DNA from: Symbiodinium sp. CCMP2592 | Taxonomy: Eukaryota > Sar > Dinophyceae > Suessiales > Symbiodiniaceae | Length of the DNA stretch: 64,000 nucleotides | Assembly (NCBI GenBank): GCA_905221615.1 | Contig: CAJNDT010003824.1 | Location: forward strand, 447,001 to 511,000 | Direction of reading: 5' to 3' | Shown: positions 1 to 51,907 of the stretch, one piece after another | Position numbering within the stretch: the first letter of the stretch is position 1 | How the letters are laid out: the number at the start of each line of letters is the position of its first letter | The notes under the pieces: generated by a model | The model's database searches: none | Told to the model about the DNA's origin: nothing | What the model saw: the letters and a program-made list of their open reading frames with translations, nothing else | Program-made: the position numbers and the translations under genes

Positions 1-3000
1 TTCCACGACTGGTAGGAACTCCGTGCTCCACGGTTCCTCTTCATCATATGTTTCTACGTGCTGTAGCACGCGTTGTGTAAACTGGCCGGCTGCTTCTACC
101 GTTGCATCGATAGAGCTGACGTGTCTTGCTACTATGTTTCGGCACGTAACGTTAATTGCCTGGCCTTGATTGGCTTCGTCAAGTGCAGCGTCTGCATAGG
201 TGCAGAGTCCACTGTTGTGGGCTTCTCTAGCTGCCTTTCGTTGAATGCGCCGATTTTGACCTCCTCTTCTGGTAGGACCTTTTGGTCTTGGAGGATCAGA
301 AGGTACTGTTCCTTTCGCCTTTGGCGGAGGACTCTTAGGTGGAGGTGATATGTTTGCCTTGTTAGGCCCTGGTGGCATTGCCTTGGGCGCTGATGACGAT
401 GCGGCACTTGAGAGTGCAGATGTACCTCTGGCCTTTGCCGAGGATCCCTTGGGGATCGATGTATAGGTAATCTGCATGGCTTCTTCGGCCATTTGTGCAT
501 GCAAGGCATCCTTGAATAATTGTGTCATGTGAGGAGTGTTACTTGCATCATCGTAGGTCTGGAAGCGCTCAATGTCTCTTTCGGTGCCACGTGGTCGTGT
601 ATCACCTCTTTGGAAAGGATCGTTCCTGCGAATCTCCGCAACTTGTACTGCATGGAGGCAGTTTTTGCACAGCACCTTCTTGCAAACATCTCTTGCTTGC
701 TTGAGCTGGTAACAGCTGTCTGAGAGATGGTAGACTTCGCTTCGGGAAGTATGCCAGATAGGTCGCAGATCAGTTGTTTCTCCGGAATTGACCCTGTTGG
801 GTCCTAAAGGTTCACGCGTCTGCGGTTCATCCTCGGGTTCGAGGAATGGAACTCTTTGGTTCGCTGCTGCTTTTGATTTTGGTTGTTGGCGCTCCATACA
901 TCTGATAGGAGGCCTGGTAATCTGCTTCCACATCCAGTGTAAGCCCATTAGCAGCAGGAACACATTCCACGCGATGCTGAAGACGGAGAAGTCCTGCTCA
1001 CTGGTTAGTGAGTTTGGAAGTGAAGTTTCATCAGTCTTGGTAGACTCTGCGTTCGCTCCACCTCGGTTGCGGTGTCCGAACCAGCCCGACAACCCCGCTG
1101 CTGTAGCAGCTGTTCTGAGTGCCTTGCCGCTCGGAGCAGACGGTGGACGCGATGCCTTCCTTCTTCTCCTCCGGCTTGAGGATTCGTCCTCTTGTTCCTC
1201 TTCATCTCTCTGAGCAGACATCAAGTTTGATGTTTCTCTTTCGTGTTCTTCGATGTCACTTTTTGTTGGTGACGGTTCTTCTTCTAGTCCATCCAGCTCT
1301 TCCAAAGACATGTTGAGCTTGTCAACAATATTGGTTCTTTGAGGCCTGGACCTTGATCTTGGTAGATCTTGTTGTGAAGAGGACGATGATTCCTGGTTCC
1401 TTCTTGGAGGAGGACCTTCAGGCTCGCTGGGACGTTCAGGCTGTGGCCACTCCCAGAATCTTCCATATCTGTGATGGCTACCTGATGGTTGCGATTTGTC
1501 GTACCAGCTGTTGCCGGATGAGTAAACGAATGAATCGTTGTAACCCCAGTATTCAGCATTACGCTGCTTGTAAGCCTTTCGCTTGTCAGCGATCTTTTGG
1601 ACCTGGGCATCTGACCGGTTGTGTTTCCCTTTTGTAAGGATTGGTTGAATCGTGAAGCCCAAAGGGCTGTGCCAATCTTTGTCAGAGGGACTCAACCATA
1701 GGTCAAGGTTAGAAAAAGTTGAATAGTACTGCTTGACTGAGACAAACAGACGGATATCAATATCCCTGTTGTTGTTCGTGTCCTGCCACATATCTGAGAT
1801 TCGTTCCCAGTATGTTCTTTCAGCGGCAGGTGTGACCTCTCTTGGACTAGGTGACGCCGTGTGCGGCGTTTTACTCCAGTCAAGGATATAACTGTTGATA
1901 CAGTCAAGGTCAGCAACTTTCTTCGCCGGGTCCGCCGGTAGACGATCTGCACGTGCCAGTCTGTGCTGGTCGGAGTTGTTCAAGCAAAGATGTCGCACTT
2001 GTGAGTGCCTTCCTGCTATTTTGTTGAATGCTGCAAGTTTCTTCTCCAGGTATAGAGAAAACAAACTGTTTCGCGGGTGAACGTCTCCACCTTTTAAGGT
2101 GAGCCTCGACGCAATATTATTGAGATCTCCCGCTATTACATCCGGTTTAAAAGGGAGAATCTCGTTGAGGAACGCGTTCACCAGTTCGCGTCTCTGTTCT
2201 TCCTTATGAGTCATGAACGAGTTGAAATGGACGATCGCGATGGTGATGACCTTGTAAGGCCCTTTTGTACACCACATCTCGTCAAGATCGTTCGATGCTT
2301 CTTGTGAGAAGATCTCTGCGTATGACTCAAAGTCTTCCTCTGGTGGCTCATCACCCTCGACATGGCCGTTCCATTCACAGAGAATCGGCGAGGGGTCGAG
2401 GTTCGACAGTGTCAGGCACGCCTCTGGTGAGAGGTAAGAGCCATCAGTGGGTCCATCCTTGTCAGGATTTTTGCCCTTGAGTGGGTCATATCCGATAATC
2501 TGCATGAACTCGTCTCTCGTCATCCTTTGGCCAGAATATGGGTGGACCCATTCTTTTGCCTCTGGTATGGTACTGTGGTACCCAAAGGTGAGGCGGCATA
2601 CCGCACCGTGGCATGCCCACAGTCGCTTCTTGGGACCACCATTCTTAGGCTTCATTGTTCGATGACGGTAAAAGTGGTGGACGAGAGCGATGTCTGTTGT
2701 TGGGTCACCCTTGACTCCAATATACATTGAGGGTGCCTCAGGCTCCTTGGGAGGAGAATGGATTAGCATCCCCCTGTATTCATGTTGTCGCATGGTTGCG
2801 ATTGAATACTCTGACGCAAGTGCTCCTGCCTCGAGTACGAGGGTAATATGAGCTGAATTGTTGAAGCACATGTCAATAAGAGGGTGATAATCGAATCCCT
2901 TCTCAGGTTTGAGCTTCTTTTTGGGATTCCCTGCGGGCACCGGCGCTCGATCCATATTTCCCCAGTTGAATACCACTAGGTTTAGCGATACGCTGTCTGG

Positions 3001-6000
3001 GTTTGAGCCTTCAATGTATTCTCTCTTCTCGTTAACACCGGCCATCCTATTGCGAACTATCTCGTAATGTGCGTCGAGCACCAGTTTGTCTTCGTAGCCA
3101 GTAAGAGAGAGAAAAGAAGCCGGGTGGCTTGTTCTAGAGTCCTTGATATTGATGTGACTCTTGTTAATGCTCTTATATTCCTCCAGGGTTGGAGCCTCTG
3201 TGGAGCTGTCATACGTATTCGGAGGATTGTTCCTAATATCATCAAGGCTGCATGGATCAACGCCTGGATGGTCCTTTTCGAACAGACTTCTTGCGTGTTC
3301 GCAATACATGTTGATTTTCTGGACTGCCAAATCTACGTCCTCATGTGTGAGGATGGCCTCGTATAAAAACTGACGCTCTTCTGAGGTCATTCCTGCTCTC
3401 ACTTTGGAGGTCTCAAGGCAATCGATTGGCAAGACGCACTCGCACATCCGTTGTTTACCCTGTGGGGTAAGTCGACAGTCTGCACATACAATCGTTCCAC
3501 AGGAATAGCAAAAATAGCCTGTAGGCTGTTTGCAGAGATCGCAGAGAGGATTGTCTGGTCGAGGCAACATTCGTATCCTTTGGTTAAGGCTCATGGCTGT
3601 CCTGCGTACTCCTACAAATCTCTCCTTGTTAGGAGGTGCAGAGGAGGAAGATGCCGACTCTCTGGGTCTGTCCCACTCCTCTTCGTCAGGAGCCTCAGAA
3701 TCTTTGATCATGAGTGGACTTCGGATTTTTCGATTCCATCGACTAACCCAGATTCTCTCTTGCATTTCCTGTTGCATAGCCGGGTTAGACGGTGACTTCG
3801 AGATTCGGTGCTTGGTATTTTCTCGAATTCGAGCGCTGATGCGCTCATGTTCTCTTACGAGGTCTTCCTCATCAGCAGGCTCCTCGTATTCGAGGTTGAG
3901 CTTGCTTCTGTTGACTCGATAATAGGTTTCTGTTTCAGGATCGAAGAGAACTAGGAATTTTTCCTTCTCCTTTTTAGGAGATTTTGGTTTTCTTGGCTCT
4001 TCGTCTGAGCTCTGAACATATTCCGTTTCAGGCCTTGGTTGGTCAAGTTTGACCTTCTCAAGTTTCTCTGTGATCTCTTCCGTGGGAGATTCTTTCTTCT
4101 CCTCTGACGCTGCAGGTGCAGAGTTCGTCTTGTGAGACGGATTAACATCAACTCGGAGTTCTGAGGATGACGAAGATTTTGAGCTCTTTTCGCTCTTCTC
4201 GCTCTTTTCGCTTGATGCCGACTCAACGTCTGATTCTTCGTCACAATCCTGGTTAGGATCTGGTTCCTCAGGTTCCGTCTCTGTTCCAGAAGATTCTTCC
4301 TTGGGAGGAACTACGTTGGCAGAAGTATCCTGGACAGGTTCTGGAGGTTTGTGACCTGTCGTTATCTTAAGAACTTCAGTGGCGCTTCTGGTGCCGTCGG
4401 AGTTCCAGAGCTGTCCCATAAGACTGTCCGGATCCTTGTCGGCCTCGGCCTGCCGGGCGAGCTTGGATCTCGGATGGATCTCCTTTGCAGTAGTCTCCGT
4501 TTTCGGAGGTACTTCACCTGCAGAAGCGGTTTGCTCCAGGTTTGGAGCTGTGTCAGTCTCTGTATTTGGCAGAGAGAAAGACTTCTTGTGAGAAGATCTA
4601 GCCTTGGGAGGCTCTGGAGGCAGATTTCGCCTTGACATCTTGCGAAGTGTCGATTCGATCTCTTGGCCGTAATTTGAGCACCATTTCTTCGACTCGTAAG
4701 TCGCTGACGGCATCTGTTCGGAGCAGTGGTCTGCCCACCATGGTCCGATGCTCTTGAGCTCATCGTATTGCGATGATACCCAGAGTGTTTCAGAGGGTGC
4801 AAATACGGCGCTAAGAGTACGGGCATGCACTACCTCTGGTGTAGCAAACATCCCTGCTTGCGACTGCCACATGTTTGTGACTTCGTTCACTACGTTATTT
4901 GCGTCGAATACTAGAAGCAGTGCCTTGTTGGCACGCAGCAAAGTCGGATTAGGATTCGCCAGGTTTAGCGTTGAAAACTGAACAGTGTCCCTGTTGGAAC
5001 GACTGTTTTCATTCACGAGAGCTTGAAGACCTGGTGAGGTAACCACCTGCGATAGGAGGTTTGATGGTACCAGACCATGCCTCAGGATTGAGGATAATGC
5101 CTGTAAGTCCGTGGCATGCATGATGTAACAAGGGTTGTTCTGTCGAACAAAATCTTCCATGCCTACGGGCCTTGGCGCGTTAGTGGAGAGACGCTGTGCA
5201 TGGGACTGCACAGGATTGCTCCCCGTTGCCATGAAGTCTGAGATGGTCATGTGTGACCTTGGCCTCTCTTCTTCAGGATCTGGTTCTTCAGCTCTTGGTA
5301 GAGTTCGTCGTGAACCGTGTCCTCCCACTGCCGAGAGGAAAAGTTTGGTCATGGTCAGCACATTTGCATCCGATGGGATGGTAACGGCGGCATCTGTTGT
5401 TTCGGCCTTGCCATCTTGGTCATAAACCATAGTGACCACGAACCTGGACTTAGTGTTAAGGAGGACACCAAGCGCGATCTCTTGTGGTGTATACTGTGCG
5501 AGCTCTGCATCGGCCAACTTGGACATATCCAGAAGATAATTGTGTTGGCCAGCAAAGAGATCTTGGCGCTGGTTCTGAAGGTGTCTTGTTGAGTGTGCCA
5601 ACCACCTTCCGACTCTGTTGGTCTTGGAAAGAATGTGGAAGCACATCTCTGGTGAGAGACCTGTTACCTCTGTCAGTCTTGGCACTGAGGAGGAATAGTC
5701 ATATTCTCCTGATGCATCAAGACTCACACATTGTTTTACCTCCTGTGGGAGGCCAGTCTGAAGGTGATGTGCAAGCATCGTACAAAACTGGCGTGGATCA
5801 CGAGCGTGATTACCCACGTTGTTATCCCAGTATAAAAGGGGACTGTTGTCCCATGGTCCTTGAAGGACTCCTTCGTAGAGCCTGACTCCATGTCTGGAGA
5901 TTGGAGTGAGCCTTGCTCGACTCGCATGGCCACATCGTAAGATCAGGTCAGCAAGATCTCTTGGACGCGGATTGAACACCTGTTGGTGACCCATGTAAAT

Positions 6001-6189
6001 GTATGGAGGCTCGTTATTTTTCTCACGTTTGTGAAATCGGTGTCCACCGTGTTCGGTGTGTCGACGTGATGCTTCCCGACGAGACTCGGGGTACGAGCTA
6101 TCCATGTGTGGATGTCGCTCATGGTACGCCTGTACTGCCCTGGGTAGGGCGTGTCCATCACGGCTACGGAAGTTTGATCGTGTGCTCAT
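1..6189 (-). CDS. Giant second ORF of the retroelement: ART/Tpt1-like, RING-like and EEP-nuclease-like regions (C-terminus off window)
   Basis: I read this frame codon by codon: the ATG is at 6189-6187 and no stop occurs down to base 1, giving at least 2,063 codons. Residues 356-460 carry H358-A-T, RHGLVP (370-375), RDTVQFS (400-406), LLLVFDANNVV (424-434) and MFATPE (447-452). This spacing recalls the C-lobe of Tpt1/KptA RNA 2'-phosphotransferases (ADP-ribosyltransferase fold). An acidic, Ser/Glu/Lys-rich linker follows. Residues 883-925 hold a cysteine cluster like a RING or treble-clef finger. Residues 1068-1515 resemble an exonuclease-endonuclease-phosphatase domain: FNWGNM with N1075, LEAG with E1120, IVHFNS, GDLN (1354-1357) and a final DWHSP with H1507. 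A hydrophobic segment lies at 1734-1754, and C1826/C1836/C1841/C1844 form a further Cys motif. The tail is Pro/Ser-rich. The frame is conserved in copy 2 up to the gap. The ORF is certain; the domain calls are inference. Confidence 0.8.
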   Translation of the reverse strand, partial: MSTRSNFRSRDGHALPRAVQAYHERHPHMDSSYPESRREASRRHTEHGGHRFHKREKNNEPPYIYMGHQQVFNPRPRDLADLILRCGHASRARLTPISRHGVRLYEGVLQGPWDNSPLLYWDNNVGNHARDPRQFCTMLAHHLQTGLPQEVKQCVSLDASGEYDYSSSVPRLTEVTGLSPEMCFHILSKTNRVGRWLAHSTRHLQNQRQDLFAGQHNYLLDMSKLADAELAQYTPQEIALGVLLNTKSRFVVTMVYDQDGKAETTDAAVTIPSDANVLTMTKLFLSAVGGHGSRRTLPRAEEPDPEEERPRSHMTISDFMATGSNPVQSHAQRLSTNAPRPVGMEDFVRQNNPCYIMHATDLQALSSILRHGLVPSNLLSQVVTSPGLQALVNENSRSNRDTVQFSTLNLANPNPTLLRANKALLLVFDANNVVNEVTNMWQSQAGMFATPEVVHARTLSAVFAPSETLWVSSQYDELKSIGPWWADHCSEQMPSATYESKKWCSNYGQEIESTLRKMSRRNLPPEPPKARSSHKKSFSLPNTETDTAPNLEQTASAGEVPPKTETTAKEIHPRSKLARQAEADKDPDSLMGQLWNSDGTRSATEVLKITTGHKPPEPVQDTSANVVPPKEESSGTETEPEEPDPNQDCDEESDVESASSEKSEKSEKSSKSSSSSELRVDVNPSHKTNSAPAASEEKKESPTEEITEKLEKVKLDQPRPETEYVQSSDEEPRKPKSPKKEKEKFLVLFDPETETYYRVNRSKLNLEYEEPADEEDLVREHERISARIRENTKHRISKSPSNPAMQQEMQERIWVSRWNRKIRSPLMIKDSEAPDEEEWDRPRESASSSSAPPNKERFVGVRRTAMSLNQRIRMLPRPDNPLCDLCKQPTGYFCYSCGTIVCADCRLTPQGKQRMCECVLPIDCLETSKVRAGMTSEERQFLYEAILTHEDVDLAVQKINMYCEHARSLFEKDHPGVDPCSLDDIRNNPPNTYDSSTEAPTLEEYKSINKSHINIKDSRTSHPASFLSLTGYEDKLVLDAHYEIVRNRMAGVNEKREYIEGSNPDSVSLNLVVFNWGNMDRAPVPAGNPKKKLKPEKGFDYHPLIDMCFNNSAHITLVLEAGALASEYSIATMRQHEYRGMLIHSPPKEPEAPSMYIGVKGDPTTDIALVHHFYRHRTMKPKNGGPKKRLWACHGAVCRLTFGYHSTIPEAKEWVHPYSGQRMTRDEFMQIIGYDPLKGKNPDKDGPTDGSYLSPEACLTLSNLDPSPILCEWNGHVEGDEPPEEDFESYAEIFSQEASNDLDEMWCTKGPYKVITIAIVHFNSFMTHKEEQRRELVNAFLNEILPFKPDVIAGDLNNIASRLTLKGGDVHPRNSLFSLYLEKKLAAFNKIAGRHSQVRHLCLNNSDQHRLARADRLPADPAKKVADLDCINSYILDWSKTPHTASPSPREVTPAAERTYWERISDMWQDTNNNRDIDIRLFVSVKQYYSTFSNLDLWLSPSDKDWHSPLGFTIQPILTKGKHNRSDAQVQKIADKRKAYKQRNAEYWGYNDSFVYSSGNSWYDKSQPSGSHHRYGRFWEWPQPERPSEPEGPPPRRNQESSSSSQQDLPRSRSRPQRTNIVDKLNMSLEELDGLEEEPSPTKSDIEEHERETSNLMSAQRDEEEQEDESSSRRRRRKASRPPSAPSGKALRTAATAAGLSGWFGHRNRGGANAESTKTDETSLPNSLTSEQDFSVFSIAWNVFLLLMGLHWMWKQITRPPIRCMERQQPKSKAAANQRVPFLEPEDEPQTREPLGPNRVNSGETTDLRPIWHTSRSEVYHLSDSCYQLKQARDVCKKVLCKNCLHAVQVAEIRRNDPFQRGDTRPRGTERDIERFQTYDDASNTPHMTQLFKDALHAQMAEEAMQITYTSIPKGSSAKARGTSALSSAASSSAPKAMPPGPNKANISPPPKSPPPKAKGTVPSDPPRPKGPTRRGGQNRRIQRKAAREAHNSGLCTYADAALDEANQGQAINVTCRNIVARHVSSIDATVEAAGQFTQRVLQHVETYDEEEPWSTEFLPVVE

Positions 6190-6413
6190 TACGGCACGAT
6201 GACCAAACAGGATCAGGAATGCTTGGTTAGCTCAAAAGGCTGATTGCTGTGAGGCTCGAGGCTGAAAGCGGCTGCGGATGATACAGAACATATAGTTCTC
6301 ATGAACATGTCCGATCTTGATGAAAACGCAGCCTGCAGACACAAATTTTCTTTTAGACGAAAAACAGTCTAAATAGAAAATCCAGCACATGGTTGTGCTA
6401 CCAGCAAACAAGA
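6190..6413 (-). other. Spacer between pol stop and second ORF
   Basis: This 224-base interval separates the pol stop (6414-6416) from the second ORF's ATG (6189) and is almost identical in copy 2 (26958-27181). I see no convincing spliced-leader acceptor, ribosome-entry or promoter motif. How the second ORF is expressed (spliced, separate transcript or re-initiation) cannot be told from the sequence. Confidence 0.5.
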
Positions 6414-9400
6414 CTACCACCATGTTCCTTGGCAGTAAAATAATCGGTAAATCTCTGTTGAGACATCAATTCCAAGGAAGGCTACCGCTGTAGCGGCATT
6501 CCTAAGGTTGTCTATGATCCACCGAACAGTGAAAGCTTTATGTTGAAGAAGTTCACGGAAGGGTGGATGAATGTCTGTTTCTGGTAAGTTTCCTGTTTCC
6601 AGAGCCTTGATAAGCTCATCAGGTTGTGCCGAATGCTTTGTTAATGCATCAGCTAGGCAGTACTTCGAGCTTACATGAGCTAGGTCATCTAAAGATCCAG
6701 AGTTGGATTCCTTACGAAGCATCTGTATAAGATGGTGAGTTTCCTTTTGCTCTGGAAGGTGTGTCGTGCCTGCTGTTGTCACAAGATTGTTCGCATCTGT
6801 TCTGATATGTATAGGTACGGTCTCTGATGAGAGATCTGCCCAAAGTCCCTTGAGGAACAGGCAGGTACCAAAGCAACGCATCAGTGCGTTAAGCTCTGCC
6901 ACTGTTGTGGACATTGTGGTTGTCGTAATCTTGTGAGACTCATAATCCACCAGGCTACCTCTCGAGGATGTTTCCTTAATAGAGGATTCAGAGAAATCGT
7001 TCTTCTTGGAAGAAGCAGCTGCTGCTGATTGTTTCATTCCTTTTAGCTTTGGATTTCGATCTTCAGCAAGGAAAATAACATGTGCTCTCTGAGATGATTT
7101 GTCATCATTGTTCCTGTAGGAAGCATCAGGGTAACCGAGGATTCTGAGATTTCCTTTCAGCGGCCAAAAACGCAATTCTACTTCGGTAGACTTCAAAATC
7201 CTAACAAGTTTGTTCAATTCTCGAATATCACCGATAGTAGGCTTGGCAGCCTTGCTCGCACACCGACTGAAGCGATAACAGATGTGAGCTTGAGTCCGGC
7301 TTTGTAGCCAGTTGATCTGTCCTAAAACACTTCTATAAGCAGTGTGCTGCTGTGGTGTGCATTGTTGCTCATTGTTGAGCTTCTTATCAAAAACAATTTC
7401 TTCTAGAGCTTCAACAGCTAGGTTCTGATTTACTGAGATATGTGCTGGCACTGATGCTGTAGCATCCTTCCAGACTAATCTCTGTCCTACAAACATAATA
7501 TCATTCGTGTCTTCAGAACCTACTGCAAATTCCTTTTTGATCGATTCAATCACGGCCTTACGAAAGGTGTCATCACCGGCCATGCACAGGTCATCTACAT
7601 GCAAACAGACTACTCCATGTACCTGTCTACCCTTGGCATTGTTGCCTGCTATGGGATCTAGGAGATAGTCAATCGCTGATTCCATGGTCTTTGGCTGAGA
7701 CTTCTTGAGCTCAGCATCTGCTGTTGCAGACTTCTTACCATACAGAACATATGTACAGCGATCCGCACGGGTTGGCACCAGGCCATAAGACAGGAGTGCC
7801 TTATCAACGATGTTCCACCATCTTCGAGGTGCATCGTTAAGTCCATAAGCGGGTTTCTTCATCCTCGCTGCAATGTAGGGAGGATAACCTGCTTCAGGAG
7901 GAATCTGACAGATTATGTCTCTCGACTCATCATAGGCTTCACCCTGCAGGAAAGCAGTCTTTAGGTCGATGTGTGTCAGATTCCACAGCTTGTTAGCTGC
8001 TAGTTGAATCGCTAAGCGGAAACCTGGGCGACTCGCAGCAGGACTATCAGTTTGCTGAATGTCCTTCTGTCGATCCTGGAAACCTCTCAGGACCCATCGG
8101 GCCTTGCACTTAAGGAAGTTTCCGTCCTTGTCTCTTTTTAGAGTCAGGACCCATCGACCAGTGACATAATTTCGGATGTTTCCGAGTTTCCGTGTATCGA
8201 CGAGCTCAAAGACATCATTGTCTAGCCAGCTCTGATATTCTGCTGCTTTCGCTTCATCAAACTGTTTCTTCATCTCACGCTTTTCCTTGGCGGTTGCCTC
8301 CTTCCGTTGTGCCTTCTGGGTTAAATTCGCTGAGTTCCTGGGGGAACTTAGAGATAAGGCCTTGTCCTCTTCCGTGAGAAGATCGTACTCTTCACGAATG
8401 TCAGATCGGAACCTTTTGGTGGGTTTATACCGTGTTCGGTCTGACCTCACTCTTGATGTTACCTCTCTGATGTCTACGGGTCCGCCATGCATGTACCGAG
8501 GCATGGAGAAAGAACCTGTGTTACTGCACAGTTTCTGTTCTTCTGTGAGAAGGACCCAGTCCTTCTCATCTACGACCAAGTCACCTTCCTCATCAGAGTA
8601 ATACCTTGTGTTTTCTGACTCGGCATCGCTCTCCGGTTCTGGTGAACCAGAAGTGTGAGGAGGAGCGGACGGTTGTCCGGGGTCGTCTGGGACCAGTTCT
8701 TCTTCAGTGTCTTCTTCATCTTGTTGTAACGGAAGAATGGGTCCCTGTGGATGTGCCTTCGGTTTAGGTTTTGGTGTCGGCACCTGTGAAGGTGATTTCT
8801 GTTTGTGCGGCGAAACTTTCCTTTCCGATGAAGACCTTGGCGACACATCACCCCCCAGACGCCGAGGAGACGGAACGCGAGGAGGCGGATGCACGCGAGG
8901 CTTAGCCCGAGCAGGAGCCACGGGCTCATCGGAGGAAACGGCCGGTAGTCGCGGTGGAGGTATGGGAGGAGGAGGACGCGACGGCGGCGTGCCGGGAGGC
9001 ATCGGCTGATCTGGTTCCGGCATAGAAACATCGTCAGATGTGATCCGTGAGCGATTAGTGCTCATTGGTTCTGACGGGTCTGACGGCGAAACCTCTTCGT
9101 CCGACATGATTACATCCGGCGGTGTTCGCACGGACGGTGAAGTCTTGCCGCCTGTCATCTGGAATAGCACCCCCGAGAAGGTTGATGGGTGTACCTTGTT
9201 CCAGGAAACCTGGTGCGGCAAGCAACACGTCATAGTCGAATTGGGCTTCTTCTTGTTCCAGAAGACAAGAACGCCATCAGTTACACTGGTGAGTGCTTTA
9301 CTGTTCCAAATGTACCTCTGTATAGAGTACACTGTTCGAAACCAGACCCTGGTAAGAGTCTTGATCTAAGGCGAGTAATGTCTGACACCAAGGCATCAAG

Positions 9401-12400
9401 GGACGGTGATGGTTTGGAATGATGCAATGGTAATTCAGTTTTACTCGATAAAGAATTTACTCTAGCAACAAGTGATCTGATTTTCGGATCTTGCAGGAGT
9501 TTTGAATCCTTGAGAGGATTTGTTGTCAAAAGTGAATACTCCTGATCAAGAAGTTCCGAAAGTCCCTGGAGGCATTCATCTCCAGAGTATTCTAGTATGT
9601 CTGTGACTAAAGACAGATGAGATGCATACGCATCTCGCTTCAGGAATCTTGCCAAACACGAGGCAAAGGTCTCACAGAATTCATAAGGATACACTTGTGC
9701 GAGTTTCGTTTTAAGACCGTAGCCTTGAATACCCTTTTCGTCTCCTGGTGGAGATGTTGGAGATTTCGTTTTGGCAGAATGCCTCTGGAGAGGAATTAAA
9801 ACTTGCGGTGGCAAGTTGTGCATAAAAATCGAGGATTTCGATTCATAGTATCCTGTTGGATCTTTCATGCCATAGGCCTGTAGGTTACAGACCTCATAGC
9901 TGATCTTATGATTAGAAAACAGGCGTTTTGCTTCTGGTGAAGACCAGAGCCTGCTGTAGTATGGGTTCTCAAGAACAAAGTAACGTCCGAGCTTCATTTG
10001 GTGGTCTGCGACCGATTCACAGAATTTTAAAACAGAAAGTCTCTTGGCAGAGCCTTTCTTCCACTGTGAGTACCAGCTAGACCACTGAGAATGGTCCGGT
10101 GACATAACAATAATAGTAGGTTCTTGTTCCTTGATGATCCTAAGAAGATTGGAGCGACCTTGCGGTTGCTCAAGATCTAGACCGCTACGCAAATCGACTG
10201 GCTGACCTACTCGAAGACCTGACAGGGCAGCTTTGTGACTCATGCGGGGAGATCCGCCGTAGAGTTCTAGGAAGTCAATCTTCCCAGTGCTGGTGACCTG
10301 CCAGTGACACTCTTGATGTGGAACCGTTAGGTCTGTCGACTGCAGGGAAGCATCGAAGGTGACCATGCAACTTGCGTGGTCAGAACCTTCTGACGTCAGA
10401 GTTTCCTCATCAGGCGCGAGAGGAATCTCCACATCAGATGTTATGTCATAATTTTTCCTCAGTTTTGAGATATTGACGCGGACGATGCGTGTTCCAAGAT
10501 CCACACCTACCATGGATCCTCCGAGTTCGGAGATCACCTTTCCTTTTAGCCAAGATCCATGTTTGGACCCAGTGGATCCAATCTTAGACTTATCTTCTGA
10601 CCAGTAGAAAACCTTATCTCCCAAAGAGAAAGGTCCTTGGGTCATTGACAGTCTGGCTGCAAGATCTCTACGCAGATCATCAGATTGGCGTGCCTCTTGG
10701 TAAGCCCTGTTGGCAAGCTCCTTAATGGCTCTCGCAGTGACTTCCGTATCAGTTGGATTACCTGTCAACTGATTGGGATCAGCGTTCTCTGGTGTTATAA
10801 CATCTCGAGGACGCCTTCCAAAGGCCATTTCTAAAGGAGTAACTCCTCCGTAGGTAATCGAAGAGTTTCTTGCCAAACATGCTTGGCGAACGAGGTTGCC
10901 ATACTTCATGGTGATTCCGTTATACTGCGGGTCACCATCCTTCAGGATCTGAAGTATGAGCTTAATCTGATGCTTCAGCAATCTTACAGCAGCTTCGGCC
11001 CTGTTGGGCCATGGTGTTCCAGGTCCTGTTGCCACAGGCTTGATATTCTGCCGATTGTAATAAGCCTCCATTTTTGGAGTCATGAATGCTTGATCTCCAA
11101 CTACAACCTTTGGGTTGATCTGAAATTTCTCAAAGTAGTCATTCATAATCGACATTGTAGTATGTTCTTCTTTATCCTGGACTACTTCGGCAGTCAACAA
11201 GTTTGTTGCTCCATCATAGAGAATAAGAAATACTAAGCGACTATCCTTGCCGGGAATTGGAAGCTCACCGTGATCTACGAAGGTGAGATCACCGAAAGTC
11301 TCTGATCTTAGACCAGAAATCTTCGCTCTCGAAGGAGCTCTCACATGTTCCTGGCAGGCTGAACACTTTTTGACCAGTTGGTCATATAGCTCGTAGATCT
11401 CCTTTGGGATCTGTAAGGCTTTTGTGCGTCGCTTGAACTGATCCGTACTCATATGACGGTGCTTAAGGTGAAGCTTATAGAGTTCTACAGGGTCCTTAAG
11501 CTTCTCATGAATCCTGCGAAGAGCAATGGGAAGAGATGGCGATGGTTCTGCGACAATCTCTTCACCTGTAGGTGAGTCTGTACCAGGAGCCGGGTATTCT
11601 CTTGACTCAAGTGGTCTTACCTCCGTCCCGTCATCAGCTCCTGGGACCTTAGACTTCTCTTCAACAGGAGATTTAACCGCATATTTGCGGGATTTCTTCA
11701 GAAGGTTTTTAAGACCCTTTGGAGTCTTTATCTTCGCAGGTGGAACCTCAAGTCTTTCTTCTTCTGGAGGTTCATGTGGTGCAGAGGATTCTGCAGGTTT
11801 GTCCCTAGAGCCTGATGATGGTTCCGATGGTCCGGAAGGCTCAGGAACATCACCAGATGGTTCTGGTGGATCAAGTTTCTTGGCAGATGATTCTGCCGGA
11901 TCAGATGGAAGAGGCTTCTTTTTACCTGAAATCCTCTTCGGTGGTGGATCAGCTGCTCCCTCAGGTGCTTTGTCACAACCCTTAAGGTACGTGTGAGCCT
12001 TTTTCTGTCCGGCACAGGCTGGACAGCGACCTTCCGGTATCCTAACATAAGGCTTATTGGCTCCTAGAGCAGTCTCCGTCGCACTGAACGACGTACCTGA
12101 CTTAGGGAGGTACTTCCTGGTGGAAGTAAAGCCTAGAAGGTCCAATACCAAATGGTTATTGGTACTAATCGGAAGAGGGGTTTTATACAAACCGAAAGCT
12201 TCACACGTTGCTAGGTCAGCTGTGGGACTACACTCGAGGGTCATTCTTAAATTCCTCATCTGTTCGATGGAAAACAAAATGGGGACTCTCCCCTGATCCA
12301 AAACTTCTATGGTTGTATCTCTTCTTGGAGTTGTGTTGAACCATAGAGTTACACGCTCCTTGATAAGAGCTGTTTCACTATCTGCGAAAGAGAACTTCGT

Positions 12401-14279
12401 GTTCGAAGGTGAAAAAGTGAAATCAATCATGCCTGGGGCATGTTGCTTCACGGCCTTGATAAGCCTGTTCACCGCATAGCGGGAACCCATAGCCCTAGTA
12501 CAACCAGAGTCAAGTATGACAAAGGTAGGGCTCTTATCAAGATTGATCCGCTCTGTGAGAGCAGATAGGACGGTGTGCTGCAACGGAAACACTGCTGTTG
12601 CAGTCTCCACACCTTGCCCCTCGGATGGTTCAAAGACCTGGGGCACGTAACTCACTGATGAGTTGTACACGGGTTCTTGGTGCGCGCTCGGATCTGTGCC
12701 TCTACCTGATGATCCTGCTTGATTTCTTCTCTTCTTTCTCCGTGTCTTTCTTCGTGAGGCTTGTGATGCATAGTATGTATAAGACGTTTGATCGTCATAA
12801 GCGGCATAATTCCAACTGGAGTCAGTATAATAACTGTCCTCATACCATGAATCCCAGCTCGGTGCGGTGGAACTTTCATAGGCCTGTGGAGATCCAGTTT
12901 GGTCTCCTTGTAAGGAGGCAGACTTAGCTGTATCCTTACCTTTGCCTTTTGATTTTGTACCCTTGAAGGAGCTTCCTTTATCTCCTTTGTCCTTTCCTTT
13001 TCCTTTGCCTTTTCCACCTTTTCCTTTTTCTTTTCCTTTACCTTTACCGAAATAGCTGGAATCAGTTGGATCATGTTCTGCCTGGTTGGCTCTCCCTTTT
13101 CCGCGGTATGACCTAAAACGGCCACGTCCTTTTCGCTTGCCACCCTTTGCTCTTCCCGGTGATCCGGGACGCATTCTTGGTCTTCTTCCCTTTTTGAATC
13201 TCCTTGCAACGAAGGCTTCATGGTCGTCAACTGTCCAGAAGACAGCTTCTTCATCCTCGGCGGCAAGAAAGCCTTCCTCAAGGGTGTCTTCGTCTTGGAG
13301 CCAGAATCCATCGACTCCGTCGTATTCACCCTGATCGAGGATGAGGAAGTTTCGACCTCCGCGTTTGCGGCGTTGGTCTCTCCTTCCATGGCGGTCCTTC
13401 TTGTGAGAAGAGTGCCGAATGTTGGGATCCTGCAGACCAGTTCTGGTCGTTGAGAACTGATCGAACATGGTCTGCCGTACCACAGGGTACGTGTAGGTCT
13501 CAATTCGGTGACCTTGGTTGGTCAATGCTGTTACCAACCTCTCACGTTGCATCTCATTTAGGTCGGACTGCACTAGGAAGAGGAGAGCTAGGAGATTATC
13601 ATTTAGAGGAAACGCTCTTCGATGATTATCAAGGCGTTCCTTGTTCCATGTTTCGAAGAAACGTGCGGCGTATGTGTCTCTCTCGGTTGCATCCTGTAGG
13701 CGCAAGAAGGTTTGATCTGCCTGCACAGCCTGCATGAAATCTGGATGGGCATCTTCCAGAGCTATCTCTGGTAAGAGATCCATCCATGAGTTTTCACGCG
13801 CTGTAGCACGATCTCAAACTTAGCAATCCAAGTCACAAAGTCTTGGTTGCCCTTCCATGCCTTGAATAGGCCGAGGAAACGCCACAGGAAAACGTACTGT
13901 TCTCCTTTCACGAAAAATGGACGCATCTTCTTCTTGAAGTAATCTACTCCATCTGGGGCTGCAAGCCTTTCTCGGTTAGTGATTCTTTTTGTACTGCGGC
14001 CAATCCGGAGAGCCTCGTCTTGAGAGACGGACCTCTTTTGGTGTCATCCAGCGTTGTTATGTCGCACCAGTCGTCAATCAACTGTTCATACTCAAACCAC
14101 GAGGTGGTGCCATCATAGGCAGGCGCGATCTTGGGCGTTATGCCTAATGATGCAAGCATGCGGTCAGATGTTGCATATGACTGTGCGACATAAGTAGCTG
14201 GACCTTGGGAGGTCTCTTCGTTCTCATATCCCCCGGAGGATTGGGAACTGCCGTCGGCTTCGCTATGCGAGCTCGACAT
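6414..14279 (-). pseudogene. copia-like gag-pol polyprotein, copy 1, disrupted by three 1-base deletions
   Basis: Start ATG is 14279-14277 and the stop is at 6414. Domains in order: a gag-like alpha-helical N-terminus; a basic Gly-Lys repeat (about 13010-13060) in place of a zinc knuckle; a copia-type aspartic protease with ILDSGCTRAMGS; an integrase with an HHCC finger (HLKHRHMS...CSAC) and D,D,E residues in FVDHGE, VVGDQAF and NRAEAAV; a methyltransferase-like segment; a copia reverse transcriptase with DLKTAFLQG and LHVDDLCMAG; and RNase H (PDASYRN, AELNAL, RTDANN). Compared with copy 2, single bases are missing near 13977, 13793 and 9300. This leaves open pieces of 111, 1500 and 972 codons. 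The full-length frame would be about 2,620 codons, unusually long for copia. Confidence 0.88.
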
Positions 14280-14375: not shown

Positions 14376-14631
14376 GAAAACTGTGCCGATACACCCACAA
14401 GGGAATACTCCTTGTTAGGAGGTGTATGACCAGTTTATTCCCTAAGGATCAAAGGGCAGCGCCCTGCACACGGACAGTAGTTGTTTTGTCTTGCTACGCA
14501 AGGAGAGCTTGTCTTGTCTCAATATGGTAAAACCACTGTGAGCCAATGGGCAGCGGAATGTATATGTATGAGCATGCAGCCATTGCTGTAGGTACCTGTT
14601 AGAGCTACCCCTTTAGAGGTTTATGGTTTCA
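14376..14631 (-). repeat. Candidate 5' LTR and primer-binding site, copy 1
   Basis: On the minus strand this stretch begins TGAAACC at 14631, and a GGCACA that could be an LTR 3' end lies near 14382. About 6 bases further comes TGGTAGCGGAGCC (14375 downward), which could be a primer-binding site because it starts with TGG, the complement of a tRNA CCA end. The same layout is present in copy 2. No second copy (3' LTR) lies in the window, so calling it an LTR is inference. It carries several small differences from copy 2. Confidence 0.35.
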
Positions 14632-14864
14632 CCCCCCCCCCTCCCCCCTTCCCTCCCGCCCCTCCTCCGCTCGCTGACAGGTGCGAGTTTTGTGGAGTTT
14701 TCGACGACACGGGACTGCAATGTAGCATCTTTATGTGTTGAAGCTCGCCTTTAAGGCTGCAGTACCAAGCGAGTTTCAAACCTGAAATTCTAACCCTACT
14801 GCAGATAGTAGCCACTCGCCGCATGCGCGTACAGCCGGGCCGAGGCGGACGACGCGCAGCGTTT
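14632..14864. repeat. C-rich tract plus ~180-bp interspersed repeat (copy a)
   Basis: A C-rich tract directly abuts the retroelement 5' boundary. It is followed by about 180 bases (from GTGGAGTTTTCGACGACACG to GCGCAGCGTTTCAA) that recur almost unchanged at 25063-25242, also after a C-rich tract. I do not recognise it. It may be an independent short repeat or part of an element terminus. Confidence 0.6.
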
Positions 14865-25832: not shown

Positions 25833-26957
25833 TGGTACCAGACCATGCCTCAGGATTGAGGATAATGCCTGTAAGTCCGTGGCATGCATGATGTAACAAG
25901 GGTTGTTCTGTCGAACAAAATCTTCCATGCCTACGGGCCTTGGCGCGTTAGTGGAGAGACTCTGTGCATGGGACTGCACAGGATTGCTCCCCGTTGCCAT
26001 GAAGTCTGAGATGGTCATGTGTGACCTTGGCCTCTCTTCTTCAGGATCTGGTTCTTCAGCTCTTGGTAGAGTTCGTCGTGAACCGTGTCCTCCCACTGCC
26101 GAGAGGAAAAGTTTGGTCATGGTCAGCACATTTGCATCCTGTGGGATGGTAACGGCGGCATCTGTTGTCTCGGTCTTGCCATCTTGGTTATAAACCATAG
26201 TGACCACGAACCTGGACTTAGTGTTAAGGAGGACACCAAGCGCGATCTCTTGTGGTGTATACTGTGCGAGCTCTGCATCGGCCAACTTGGACATGTCCAG
26301 AAGATAATTGTGTTGGCCAGCAAAAAGATCTTGGCGCTGGTTCTGAAGGTGTCTTGTTGAGTGTGCCAACCACCTTCCGACTCTGTTGGTCTTGGAAAGA
26401 ATGTGGAAGCACATCTCTGGTGAGAGACCTGTTACCTCTACCAGTCTTGGCACTGAGGAGGAATAGTCATACTCTCCAGATGCATCAAGACTCACACATT
26501 GTTTTACCTCCTGTGGGAGGCCAGTCTGAAGGTGATGTGCAAGCATCGTACAGAACTGGCGTGGATCACGAGCGTGATTACCCACGTTGTTATCCCAGTA
26601 TAAAAGGGGACTGTTGTCCCATGGTCCTTGGAGGACTCCTTCATAGAGCCTGACTCCATGTCTGGAGATTGGAGTGAGCCTTGCTCGACTCGCATGGCCA
26701 CATCGTAAGATCAGTTCAGCAAGATCTCTTGGACGCGGATTGAACACCTGTTGGTGACCCATGTAAATGTATGGAGGCTCGTTATTTTTCTCACGTTTGT
26801 GAAATCGGTGTCCACCGTGTTCGGTGTGTCGACGTGATGCTTCCCGACGAGACTCGGGGTACGAGCTATCCATGTGTGGATGTCGCTCATTGTACGCCTG
26901 TACTGCCCTGGGTAGGGCGTGTCCATCACGGCTACGGAAGTTTGATCGTGTGCTCAT
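25833..26957 (-). CDS. Second ORF of retroelement copy 2, N-terminal 375 codons
   Basis: The ATG is at 26957-26955 and the frame is open to the gap. The product is nearly identical to residues 1-375 of the copy 1 second ORF, including CYIMHATDLQ and SSILRHGLVP at the gap edge. The N-terminal 340 residues are not similar to anything I recognise. They contain NHARDPRQFCTMLAHHLQTG and a Pro/Glu/Arg linker (LPRAEEPDPEEERPRSH). Conservation of the frame, with only scattered substitutions, argues that it is a real gene of the element. Confidence 0.8.
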
Positions 26958-27181
26958 TACGGCACGATGACCAAACAGGATCAGGAATGCTTGGTTAGCT
27001 CAAAAGGCTGGTTGCTGTAAGGCTCGAGGCTGAAAGCGGCTGCGGATGATACAGAACATATAGTTCTCATGAACATGTCTGATCTTGATGAAAACGCAGC
27101 CTGCAGACACAAATTTTCTTTTAGACGAAAAACAGTCTAAATAGAAAATCCAGCACATGGTTGTGCTACCAGCAAACAAGA

Positions 27182-30100
27182 CTACCACCATGTTCCTTGG
27201 CAGTAAAATAATCGGTAAATCTCTGTTGAGACATCAATTCCAAGGAAGGCTACCGCTGTAGCGGCATTCCTAAGGTTGTCTATGATCCACGGAACAGTGA
27301 AAGCTTTATGTTGAAGAAGTTCACGGAAGGGTGGATGAATGTCTGTTTCTGGTAAGTTTCCTGTTTCGAGAGCCTTGATAAGCTCATCAGGTTGTGCCGA
27401 ATGCTTTGTTAATGCATCAGCTAGGCAGTACTTCGAGCTTACATGAGCTAGGTCATCTAATGATCCAGAGTTGGATTCTTTACGAAGCATCTGTATAAGA
27501 TGGTGAGTTTCCTTCTGCTCTGGAAGGTGTGTCGTGCCTGCTGTTGTCACAAGATTGTTCGCATCTGTTCTGATATGTATGGGTACGGTCTCTGATGAGA
27601 GATCTGCCCAAAGTCCCTTGAGGAACAGGCAAGTACCAAAGCAACGCATCAGTGCGTTAAGCTCTGCCACTTTTGTGGACATTGTGGTTGTCGTAATCTT
27701 GTGAGACTCATAATCCACCAGGCTACCTCTCGAGGATGTTTCCTTAATAGAGGATTCAGAGAAATCGTTCTTCTTGGAAGAAGCAGCTGCTGCTGATTGT
27801 TTCATTCCTTTTAGCTTTTGATTTCGATCTTCAGCAAGGAAAATAACATGTGCTCTCTGAGATGATTTGTCATCATTGTTCCTGTAGGAAGCATCAGGGT
27901 AACCGAGGATTCTGAGATTTCCTTTCAGCGGCCAAAAACGCAATTCTACTTCGGTAGACTTCACAATCCTAACAAGCTTGTTCAATTCTCGAATATCACC
28001 GATAGTAGGCTTGGCAGCCTTGCTCGCACACCTACTGAAGCGATAACAGATGTGAGCTTGAGTCCGGCTTTGTAGCCAGTTGATCTGTCCTAAAACACTT
28101 CTATAAGCAGTGTGCTGCTGTGGTGTGCATTGTTGCCCATTGTTGAGCTTCTTGTCAAAAACAATTTCTTCTAGAGCTTCAACAGCTAGGTTCTGATTTA
28201 CTGAGATATGTGCTGGCACTGCTGCTGTAGCATCCTTCCAGACTAATCTCTGTCCTACAAACATAATATCGTTCGTGTCTTTAGAACCGACTGCAAACTC
28301 CTTTTTGATCGATTCAATCACGGCCTTACGAAAGGTGTCATCACCGGCCATGCACAGGTCATCTACATGTAAACAGACTACTCCATGTACCTGTCTACCC
28401 TTGGCATTGTTGCCTGCTATGGGATCTAGGAGATAGTCAATCGCTGATTCCATGGTCTTTGGCTGAGACTTCTTGAGTTCAGCATCTGCTGTTGCAGACT
28501 TCTTACCATACAGAACATATGTACAGCGATCCGCACGGGTTGGCACCAGGCCATAAGACAGGAGTGCCTTATCAACGATGTTCCACCATCTTCGAGGTGC
28601 ATCGTTAAGTCCATAAGCGGGTTTCTTCATCCTCGCTGCAATGTATGAAGGATAACCTGCTTCAGGAGGAATCTGACAGATTATGTCTCTCGACTCATCA
28701 TAGGCTTCACCCTGCAGGAAAGCAGTCTTTAAGTCGATGTGTGTCAGATTCCACAGCTTGTTAGCTGCTAGTTGAATCGCTAAGCGGAAACCTGGGCGAC
28801 TCGCAGCAGGACTATCAGTTTGCTGAATGTCCTTCTGTCGATCCTGGAAACCTCTCAGGACCCATCGGGCCTTGCACTTAAGGAAGTTTCCGTCTTTGTC
28901 TCTTTTTAGAGTCAGGACCCATCGACCAGTGACATAATTTCGGATGTTTCCGAGTTTCCGTGTATCGACGAGCTCAAAGACATCATTGTCTAGCCAGCTC
29001 TGATATTCTGCTGCTTTCGCTTCATCAAACTGTTTCTTCATCTCACGCTTTTCCTTGGCGGTTGCCGCCTTCCGCTGTGCCTTCTGGGTTAAATTCGCTG
29101 AGTTCCTGGGGGAACTTAGAGATAAGGCCTTGTCCTCTTCCGTGAGAAGATCGTACTCTTCACGAATGTCAGATCGGAACCTTTTTGTGGGTTTATACCG
29201 TGTTCGGTCTGACCTCACTCTTGATGTTACCTCTCTGATGTCCACGGGTCCGCCATGCATGTACCGAGGCATGGAGAAAGAACCTGTGTTACTGCACAGT
29301 TTCTGTTCTTCTGTGAGAAGGACCCAGTCCTTCTCATCTACGACCAAGTCACCTTCCTCATCAGAGTAATACCTTGTGTTGTCTGACTCGGCATCGCTCT
29401 CCGGTTCTGGTGAACCAGAAGTGTGAGGAGGAGCGGACGGTTGTCCGGGGTCGTCTGGGACCAGTTCTTCTTCAGTGTCTTCTTCATCTTGTTGTAATGG
29501 AAGAATGGGTCCCTGTGGATGTGCCTTCGGTTTAGGTTTGGGAGTCGGCACCTGTGGAGGTGATTTCTGTTTGTGCGGCGAAACTTTCCTTTCCGATGAA
29601 GACCTTGGCGACACATCACCCCCCAGACGCCGAGGAGACGGAACGCGAGGAGGCGGATTCACGCGAGGCTTAGCCCGAGCAGGAGCCACGGGCTCATCGG
29701 AGGAAACGGCCGGCAGTCGCGGTGGAGGTATGGGAGGAGGAGGACGCGACGGCGGCGTGCCGGGAGGCATCGGCTGATCTGGTTCCGGCATAGAAACATC
29801 GTCAGATGTGATCCGTGAGCGATTAGTGCTCATTGGTTCCGACGGGTCTGACGGCGAAACCTCTTCGTCCGACATGATTACATCCGGCGGTGTTCGCACG
29901 GACGGTGAAGTCTTGCCGCCTGTCATCTGGAATAGCACCCCCGAGAAGGTTGATGGGTGTACTTTGTTCCAGGAAACCTGGTGCGGCAAGCAACACGTCA
30001 TAGTCGAATTGGGCTTCTTCTTGTTCCAGAAGACAAGAACGCCATCAGTTACACTGGTGAGTGCTTTAACTGTTCCAAATGTACCTCTGTATAGAGTACA

Positions 30101-33100
30101 CTGTTCGAAACCAGACCCTGGTAAGAGTCTTGATCTAAGGCGAGTAATGTCTGACACCAAGGCATCAAGGGACGGTGATGGTTTGGAATGATGCAATGGT
30201 AATTCAGTTTTACTCGCTAAAGAATTTACTCTAGCAACAAGTGATCTGATTTTCGGATCTTGCAGGAGTTTTGAATCCTTGAGAGGATTTGTTGTCAGAA
30301 GTGAATACTCCTGATCAAGAAGTTCCGAAAGTCCCTGGAGGCATTCATCTCCAGAGTATTCTAGTATGTCTGTGACTAAAGACAGATGAGATGCATACGC
30401 ATCTCGTTTCAGGAATCTTGCCAAACACGAGGCAAAGGTCTCACAGAATTCATAAGGATACACTTGTGCGAGTTTCGTTTTAAGACCGTAGCCTTGAATA
30501 CCCTTTTCGTCTCCTGGTGGAGATGTTGGAGATTTCGTTTTGGCAGAATGCCTCTGGAGAGGAATTAAAACTTGCGGTGGCAAGTTGTGCATAAAAATCG
30601 AGGATTTCGATTCATAGTATCCTGTTGGATCTTTCATGCCATAGGCCTGTAGGTTACAGACCTCATAGCTGATCTTATGATTAGAAAACAGGCGTTTTGC
30701 CTCTGGTGAAGACCAGAGCCTGCTGTAGTATGGGTTCTCAAGAACAAAGTAACGTCCGAGCTTCATTTGGTGGTCTGCGACCGATTCACAGAATTTTAGA
30801 ACAGAAAGTCTCTTGGCAGAGCCTTTCTTCCACTGTGAGTACCAGCTAGACCACTGAGAATGGTCCGGTGACATAACAATAATAGTAGGTTCTTGTTCCT
30901 TGATGATCCTAAGAAGATTGGAGCGACCTTGCGGTTGCTCAAGATCTAGACCGCTACGCAAATCGACTGGCTGACCTACTCGCAGACCTGACAGGGCAGC
31001 TTTGTGACTCATGCGGGGAGATCCGCCGTAGAGTTCTAGGAAGTCAATCTTCCCAGTGCTGGTGACCTGCCAGTGACACTCTTGATGTGGAACGTTAGGT
31101 CTGTCGACTGCAGGGAAGCATCGAAGGTGACCATGCAACTTGCGTGGTCAGAACCTTCTGACGTCAGAGTTTCCTCATCAGGCGCGAGAGGAATCTCCAC
31201 ATCAGATGTTATGTCATAGTTTTTCCTCAGTTTTGAGATATTGACGCGGACGATGCGTGTTCCAAGATCCACACCTACCATGGATCCTCCGAGTTCGGAG
31301 ATCACCTTTCCTTTCAGCCAAGATCCATGTTTGGACCCAGTGGATCCAATCTTAGACTTATCTTCTGACCAGTAGAAAACCTTATCTCCCAAAGAGAAAG
31401 GTCCTTGGGTCATTGACAGTCTGGCTGCAAGATCTCTACGCAGATCATCAGATTGGCGTGCCTCTTGGTAAGCCCTGTTGGCAAGCTCCTTAATGGCTCT
31501 CGCAGTGACTTCCGTATCAGTTGGATTACCTGTCAACTGATTGGGATCAGCGTTCTCTGGTGTTATAACATCTCGAGGACGCCTTCCAAAGGCCATTTCT
31601 AAAGGAGTAACTCCTCCGTAGGTAATCGAAGAGTTTCTTGCCAAACATGCTTGGCGAACGAGGTTGCCATACTTCATGGTGATTCCGTTATACTGCGGGT
31701 CACCATCCTTCAGGATCTGAAGTATGAGCTTAATCTGATGCTTCAGCAATCTTACAGCAGCTTCGGCCCTGTTGGGCCATGGTGTTCCAGGTCCTGTTGC
31801 CACAGGCTTGATATTCTGCCGATTGTAATAAGCCTCCATTTTTGGAGTCATGAATGCTTGATCTCCAACTACAACCTTTGGGTTGATCTGAAATTTCTCA
31901 AAGTAGTCATTCATAATCGACATTGTAGTATGTTCTTCTTTATCCTGGACTACTTCGGCAGTCAACAAGTTTGTTGCTCCATCATAGAGAATAAGAAATA
32001 CTAAGCGACTATCCTTGCCGGGAATTGGAAGCTCACCGTGATCTACGAAGGTGAGATCACCGAAAGTCTCTGATCTTAGACCAGAAATCTTCGCTCTCGA
32101 AGGAGCTCTCACATGTTCCTGGCAGGCTGAACACTTTTTGACCAGTTGGTCATATAGCTCGTAGATCTCCTTTGGGATCTGTAAGGCCTTTGTGCGTCGC
32201 TTGAACTGATCCGTACTCATATGACGGTGCTTGAGGTGAAGCTTATAGAGTTCTACAGGGTCCTTAAGCTTCTCATGAATCCTGCGAAGAGCAATTGGAA
32301 GAGATGGCGATGGTTCTGCGACAATCTCTTCACCTGTAGGTGAGTCTGTACCAGGAGCCGGGTATTCTCTTGACTCAAGTGGTCTTACCTCCGTCCCGTC
32401 ATCAGCTCCTGGGACCTTAGACTTCTCTTCAACAGGAGATTTAACCGCATATTTGCGGGATTTCTTCAGAAGGTTTTTGAGACCCTTTGGAGTCTTTATC
32501 TTCGCAGGTGGAACCTCAAGTCTTTCTTCTTCTGGAGGTTCATGTGGTGCAGAGGATTCTGCAGGTTTGTCCCTAGAGCCTGATGATGGTTCCGATGGTC
32601 CGGAAGGCTCAGGAGCATCACCAGATGGTTCTGGTGGATCAAGTTTCTTGGCAGATGATTCTGCCGGATCAGATGGAAGAGGCTTCTTTTTGCCTGAAAT
32701 CCTCTTCGGTGGTGGATCAGCTGCTCCCTCAGGTGCTTTGTCACAACCCTTGAGGTACGTGTGAGCCTTTTTCTGTCCGGCACAGGCTGGACAGCGACCT
32801 TCCGGTATCCTAACATAAGGCTTATTGGCTCCTAGAGCAGTCTCCGTCGCACTGAACGACGTACCTGACTTAGGGAGGTACTTCCTGGTGGAAGTGAAGC
32901 CTAGAAGGTCCAATACTAAATGGTTATTGGTACTAATCGGAAGAGGGGTTTTATACAAACCGAAAGCTTCACACGTTGCTAGGTCAGCTGTTGGACTACA
33001 CTCGAGGGTCATTCTTAAATTCCTCATCTGTTCGATGGAAAACAAAATGGGGACTCTTCCCTGATCCAAAACTTCTATGGTTGTATCTCTTCTTGGAGTT

Positions 33101-35049: not shown

Positions 35050-35399
35050 TGTGCTGCCTCTTATCCGCTTGGTTAAGCGTTCGGCGAGGCCGACCGCTGT
35101 AGCGGACTTTGTGAGGCGGGCGGCCCTTTCCGGGCTCCGCTACCAGAAAACTGTGCCGATACACCCCCAAGGAATACTCCTTGTGAGGAGGTGTATGACC
35201 AGTTATTCCCTAAGGATCAAAGGGCAGCGCCCTGCACACGGACAGTAGTTGTTTTGTCTTGCTACGCAAGGAGAGCTTGTCTTGTCTCAATATGGTAAAA
35301 CCACTGTGAGCCAATGGGCAGCGGAATGTATATGTATGAGCATGCAGCCATTGCTGTAGGTACCTGTTAGAGCTACCCCTTTAGAGGTTTATGGTTTCA
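35050..35399 (-). repeat. Candidate 5' LTR, primer-binding site and leader, copy 2
   Basis: Homologous to 14280-14631 with a few small indels. TGAAACC starts the minus strand at 35399, and TGGTAGCGGAGCC follows after the putative LTR end. See copy 1 for limits. Confidence 0.35.
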
Positions 35400-51880: not shown

Positions 51881-51907
51881 GGCCGATTGCATGCGTCCGA
51901 AGGTACC

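Follow-up and report, generated by a model that had tools for sequence, protein, structure and literature searches.

The 64,000-nt stretch of Symbiodinium sp. CCMP2592 DNA analysed here (contig CAJNDT010003824.1, positions 447,001 to 511,000; hereafter the window) carries at its left end, on the minus strand, a Ty1/copia-type long terminal repeat (LTR) retrotransposon. It is organized in the order LTR, gag-pol, a second open reading frame (ORF2), LTR, and spans ~15.9 kb by arithmetic from the LTR positions (Table 1). ORF2 is under purifying selection and likely includes a region related to the Tpt1/KptA RNA 2'-phosphotransferases. The genome paper refers to the strain as S. tridacnidorum CCMP2592 (PMC8045281). 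A copia-type reverse transcriptase was recognized in pol (RVT_2, PF07727; 65.1 bits compared to a cut-off of 31.6), and the frame upstream of it gave an integrase (rve) match of 15.5 bits, under the cut-off of 32.6. This copy (copy 1) has a 248-nt 3' LTR whose end lies 1,290 bases beyond the left edge of the window; this LTR differs from its 5' partner by two substitutions and two one-base gaps. A stretch behind the 5' LTR resembles a complement of initiator tRNA-Met and is a candidate primer-binding site; ARAGORN identified no tRNA gene in the window for comparison.

We examined the extent of ORF2. Starting from an ATG at 6189, the minus-strand frame runs to position 1 through 2,063 codons with zero stops, while the remaining five frames of the same interval contain 52-117 stops each and have a longest open run of 159 codons. 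The chance of finding no stop over this stretch is ~3e-43, assuming independent bases. The frame continues left past the window edge to a total of 2,307 codons before its stop, beyond which lies the 3' LTR. The initial annotation had described a copia-like element with an additional very large ORF, stop-free over more than 2,060 codons, and had looked to the sequence further left for the stop and the 3' LTR; the RVT_2 match, the paired LTRs and the position of ORF2 between pol and the 3' LTR bear this description out.

Copies were sought in the 1.098-Gb assembly (5,383 contigs). All of the best-scoring 23 of 11,328 first-look candidates were stop-free over ORF2 residues 1-2063, and in 18 of the 23 the open frame measured exactly 2,321 codons, 14 of these codons preceding the ATG. 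This set was ranked by protein score and is biased toward intact frames. Copies full of stops, named in the initial annotation as one result that would speak against it, were absent from it. Among 20 fetched copies, 16 contained the full 2,307-codon ORF2, one had 2,306 codons and one ran into Ns. A search with the pol-ORF2 spacer returned 100% printed identity for each of the best 40 of 742 first-look candidates, indicating at least 40 copies; hundreds of copies are likely present in the genome.

We next measured selection as the ratio of non-synonymous to synonymous nucleotide diversity (piN/piS). In 19 gap-free copies (the 20 fetched minus L012, which has an indel; drawn from the intact-biased sample), piN/piS for ORF2 was 0.092; 125 codons varied synonymously and 37 non-synonymously. 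For the C-terminal 244 codons, which lie outside the query, the ratio was 0.20 in 17 copies (L011, L018 and L022 of the 20 were dropped). Nine copies chosen via the non-coding spacer, namely the first nine of the 40 listed that were absent from the first set, likewise gave 0.20 over 666 codons; six of these nine were without indels, and none showed a stop when projected onto the reference frame. The last 421 codons of pol, including the stop, gave 0.049, with one indel in nine sequences (eight copies plus window copy 2) and an open pol 3' end in eight of the nine. Window copies 1 and 2 differ over 375 ORF2 codons by 8 synonymous and 9 non-synonymous changes. The initial annotation had proposed a test of dN/dS (the ratio of non-synonymous to synonymous substitution rates) against a value near 1; with piN/piS at 0.09-0.20 across three samples, ORF2 is under purifying selection, also in the less biased samples. 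A chance open frame was ruled out by these three samples together with the stop counts of the other frames. Taken together, we regard it as very likely that selection maintains ORF2 as a gene belonging to the element.

The proposal that ORF2 stays intact where gag-pol has decayed was not supported as a general rule: other copies retain a conserved pol, and the breaks are copy-specific. In copy 1, gag-pol is interrupted by small indels near 13,980, 13,790 and 9,300, in copy 2 near 31,090, and each break is private to its window copy. Since gag-pol is broken at different places in the two copies, the ancestral gag-pol was probably a single frame. Copy 2 contains the same ORF2 frame for 375 codons up to an assembly gap, as initially described. 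The 933 bases left of this gap did not match the ORF2 end or 3' LTR of the 20 fetched copies, their sole match being L025 DNA outside the element; thus, the remainder of copy 2 is either hidden in the gap or lost. A 176-bp repeat (96.6%) is present at 14692-14867, just outside copy 1, and at 25066-25241, left of the copy 2 gap. Between the integrase and the reverse transcriptase, pol of both copies (~10,100-10,280 in copy 1; 30,870-31,045 in copy 2; minus strand) contains two stretches, FLELYGG and SPDHSQW, reminiscent by eye of a DNA methyltransferase fold; Pfam lists no match there.

The clearest similarity of ORF2 is to Tpt1/KptA. When three ORF2 proteins were compared by hhalign with a set made of E. 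coli KptA plus three relatives, E was 1.5e-4 and the probability 51%. Following addition to the Tpt1 side of P0013, a clear Tpt1 protein of the same genome (PF01885 E 2e-40), these values became E 6.3e-7 and 92% over ~residues 342-454. This C-lobe similarity to Tpt1/KptA enzymes (E. coli KptA L051, human TRPT1) places ORF2 His358, Arg400 and Arg419 on invariant alignment columns. The Tpt1 alignment has four such His/Arg columns (His101, Arg136, His140 and Arg156 of P0013), of which ORF2 retains three. By eye, residues 135-196 resemble the Tpt1 N-lobe, with Gln144 replacing an Arg that is invariant in Tpt1 proteins.

Searches of Pfam, PHROGs, NCBIfam and PDB returned zero domains above cut-off anywhere in ORF2. 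A zf-B_box match over residues 879-906 scored 21.7 bits, under the cut-off of 24.1. Residues 1075-1444 contain by eye the motifs NWG, LEA, VHF, GDLNN and a late His, in the order typical of exonuclease-endonuclease-phosphatase (EEP) domains. Pfam scans gave no EEP (PF03372) match for ORF2 up to E 5-10 (E 1 in one scan), nor was there a PDB profile match, and hhalign of residues 864-1530 against the long interspersed nuclear element (LINE)-like ORF of the window gave E 0.48, at a different place. Residues 1734-1752 have a hydropathy of 1.56 over 19 residues, the highest of the whole protein. The earlier suggestion that ORF2 may supply enzymes for RNA processing is partly supported, by the Tpt1/KptA-like stretch as seen in profile comparison only; the nuclease-like stretch lacks profile support.

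Table 1. Features of the element and of its second copy, in window coordinates.
Feature	Position	Strand	Basis or remark
ORF2, first 2,063 of 2,307 codons	1..6189	-	open-frame reading; remainder left of window
Hydrophobic, possibly transmembrane segment, residues 1734-1752	934..990	-	hydropathy
Ordered EEP-nuclease-like motifs, residues 1075-1444	1858..2967	-	by eye only
Cys-rich B-box-like motif, ~residues 879-918	3436..3555	-	Pfam zf-B_box, further Cys by eye
Tpt1/KptA-like stretch, ~residues 342-454	4828..5166	-	hhalign E 6.3e-7; PF01885 12.8 bits
pol-ORF2 spacer, 224 nt	6190..6413	-	at least 40 places in genome
gag-pol of copy 1, ~7.9 kb, with small indels	6414..14279	-	frame reading; RVT_2 65.1 bits
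5' LTR of copy 1, 250 nt	14382..14631	-	LTR comparison
G-run directly before copy 1 5' LTR	14632..14641	-	flank reading
Second copy: 5' LTR, gag-pol, first 375 ORF2 codons, then 100-N gap (25733-25832)	25833..35399	-	98.98% identity

Relatives of ORF2 at 53-69% identity exist and share its domain order. P0002 and P0003 were 57% and 56% identical to ORF2 over 88% and 72%, respectively, of P0001, the ORF2 query protein; further relatives include P0007 and P0010 from S. microadriaticum, P0008 from Symbiodinium sp. KB8, and others. Scans of genome and viral contig collections with P0001 gave no relative. In P0007 and P0010, pieces of pol and ORF2 stand within one gene model, and compared to P0007, pol is identical at 212/228 ungapped positions (best piece) and ORF2 at 275/396. 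Used as a query against the genome that holds the window (best 32 of 6,686 candidates scored), P0003 gave at least 34 matches with 56-65% identity to it; 33 of these 34 listed matches were stop-free and 24 lay in frames of 2,391-2,402 codons. The gene models P0004 (Symbiodinium sp. CCMP2592), which also contains pol pieces, and P0005 (one called BSL3) fuse ORF2 pieces with other coding sequence, and these fusions are probably annotation artefacts.

The C180 locus, one of these P0003 matches, of which 3 kb was read, represents a sister subfamily with 92.6% identity over ORF2 residues 1-500 and 99.3% over 424 pol codons. Compared to the window copy, its dN/dS was 0.035 for pol, 0.32 for ORF2 residues 1-500 and 0.14 for residues 341-500. 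Thus, ORF2 holds its frame and core, yet changes ~10-fold faster than pol at non-synonymous sites. Recombination of ORF2 between elements could be an alternative source of this contrast in rate.

We also compared the flanks of the copies. Of the 20 copies for which the 3' side was fetched, 18 showed the LTR end, and all 18 continue with a G/C-rich five-mer, which was exactly GGGGG or CCCCC in 16. The corresponding background over 31,688 non-element window positions was 1.7% for G/C-rich five-mers and 0.42% for GGGGG/CCCCC. At the 5' side, 13 ends were fetched and 9 were readable, each preceded by a G-run. All nine copies readable at both ends had a five-base repeat (8 GGGGG, 1 AGGGG), as expected of a short target-site duplication, although within a tract of G any single GGGGG repeat is weak evidence of duplication. 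A simple duplication does not fit copy 1, which is preceded by a G-run but followed by a C-run; copy 2 is preceded by a C-run; and in L046 another element ends with its LTR just ahead of the 5' LTR, separated from it by a short G-rich stretch. In a narrow check of the literature, we did not find this insertion preference described.

Several findings weigh against ORF2 being a selected gene with a true Tpt1-like region. Two of the 20 fetched copies have a shortened ORF2 (2,115 and 2,067 codons), three of the nine spacer-chosen copies (L032, L033 and L036) are frameshifted within the first 666 codons, and dN/dS of residues 1-130 is ~1.2 between the two subfamilies. PF01885 was listed in just two of nine scanned ORF2 proteins, with P0001 (12.8 bits) and P0002 (15.1 bits) both under the cut-off of 26. 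ORF2 further departs from Tpt1/KptA in having Gln404 at the fourth invariant His column and an N-lobe that was not aligned in the profile comparison, its likeness being by eye only. A PDB profile search with the three-protein ORF2 profile gave zero matches, and AlphaFold models of residues 1-540 and 864-1530 were uninformative (pLDDT confidence scores of 35 and 33) because the alignment lacked depth. Finally, the evidence for ORF2 comes from genomic sequence. Weighing both sides, we consider it likely that selection maintains ORF2 as a gene of the element and that its Tpt1-like region is real. With its frame preserved by selection and one part of it similar to an RNA-modifying enzyme, ORF2 probably serves the element rather than being open by chance.

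Three other explanations were considered. If ORF2 were a passenger host gene or fragment, or a chance frame with no role for the element, the youth of the sampled copies would matter: 18 other copies carry 25-41 differences from L009 in 6,189 nt, so that even without selection part of the frame might have remained open. The low piN/piS in all three samples, the persistence of relatives at 53-69% identity and the stop-free state of 33 of the 34 best-scoring P0003 matches argue against this, and we consider it highly improbable. An envelope-like or membrane-targeting role, as proposed for post-pol ORFs of some LTR elements, would suit the position of ORF2 between pol and the 3' LTR, the hydrophobic segment near residues 1734-1752 and the N-terminus that changes fast between subfamilies. 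However, the protein is large and charged, with just one borderline hydrophobic segment, and its clearest similarity lies with Tpt1; an envelope-like function is accordingly improbable. No resemblance to env was found in Pfam scans, which were the extent of the env search.

ORF2 might instead steer integration by binding or cutting G-tracts, thereby causing the insertion preference. The G/C-rich five-mers in all 18 readable 3' flanks (compared to the 1.7% background) and the nuclease-like motifs would fit such a role, although these motifs were recognized by eye without profile support, integrase alone may pick the target, and the preference is known here only from ORF2-bearing copia copies. 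We view this role as unlikely.

Returning to ORF2 as a selected gene with a Tpt1-like region, we propose that it encodes an accessory multidomain protein translated from a separate message, either trans- or cis-spliced. ORF2 starts 224 nt past the pol stop and hence probably needs a message of its own. In dinoflagellates such a message could naturally arise by spliced-leader trans-splicing, and the spacer contains a CAG, a candidate splice acceptor. The Tpt1/KptA-like region would most likely act on element or host RNA, for instance removing the 2'-phosphates that religation of broken RNA leaves behind and thereby letting reverse transcriptase pass; alternatively, it may ADP-ribosylate RNA ends or host proteins or factors. 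The altered invariant residues could mean that the activity has changed or that the region only binds, and the fast change between subfamilies would fit a host-facing role. An RNA-directed function of ORF2 remains a tentative proposal.

Extra ORFs have precedents among LTR retrotransposons. Elements of bdelloid rotifers possess an enzymatic ORF3 encoding a GDSL esterase/lipase or a DEDDy exonuclease (PMC5408684). Like ORF2, these are enzyme-type ORFs beyond gag and pol, and the extra ORFs there are family-specific (PMC5408684); the enzymes and hosts differ, and ORF2 stands apart by its 2,307 codons and its Tpt1-like stretch. Orchid Ty3/Gypsy elements include a 25-kb element with an ORF for an AlkB-type RNA demethylase whose activity was shown in vitro (PMC9289625). 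Both are large LTR elements with an RNA-modifying-domain ORF, whereas the Symbiodinium element is copia, not Gypsy, and is characterized from sequence alone. In plant LTR retrotransposons, additional sense ORFs between pol and the 3' LTR are discussed as env-like (PMC7264820) and correspond to ORF2 in position and orientation. Within the same genus, LINE and DIRS elements carry cytosine methyltransferases, and Symbiodinium Copia is stated to be without any DNA methyltransferase (DNMT) domain (PMC5890265); these elements resemble ours as retroelements having acquired an enzyme, and differ in element class and enzyme. The initial annotation judged the second frame very unusual, a view to be softened, as post-pol extra ORFs, some of them enzymatic, were already known (PMC5408684, PMC7264820, PMC9289625). 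What appears to be new is a copia ORF2 of this length with a Tpt1-like stretch.

None of the papers listed for Tpt1 and retrotransposons connects the two, and we found no description of such an ORF in the titles or abstract openings of the listed work on dinoflagellate copia elements and extra ORFs. Chen et al. 2018, as cited in PMC11453091, reportedly described heat-activated Ty1-copia in S. microadriaticum.

Two further frames, both on the plus strand, were recorded in the window. The frame at 51887-54022 (711 codons) consists of ~22-residue repeats (FNQSLDGIQLPSSLQSLTFG) with a 66-nt DNA period and is by eye leucine-rich-repeat-like. The frame at 59892-63998 (1,369 codons, open at the window end) resembles by eye a LINE-type endonuclease plus reverse transcriptase.

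In the whole genome, PF01885 gave at least 152 matches (best 150 of 1,550 candidates scored), the listed ones all above cut-off. Many lie in a 665-codon frame (e.g. C890:314972-315535, L059), and on some contigs (C890, C5312, C980 and C459) copies of this Tpt1 frame stand ~10 kb apart. As judged from its sequence, a highly repeated family bears a clear, human-TRPT1-like Tpt1. By eye, the RVT_2 places listed (best 150 of 5,766 candidates) were all at least 15 kb away from the Tpt1 places listed. It is conceivable, if doubtful, that Symbiodinium mobile elements recruited Tpt1/KptA-type domains more than once to repair or disguise RNA against host cleavage, a clear one in the putatively mobile 665-codon family and a divergent one in ORF2 of the G-tract-integrating copia element.

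The extra genes of LTR elements reveal needs beyond gag and pol, and the G-tract preference predicts the landing sites of new copies. If the proposed role of ORF2 is true, retrotransposition would be linked to RNA 2'-phosphate or ADP-ribose chemistry in a young-looking copia family, opening the conflict between host and element in coral symbionts to testing.

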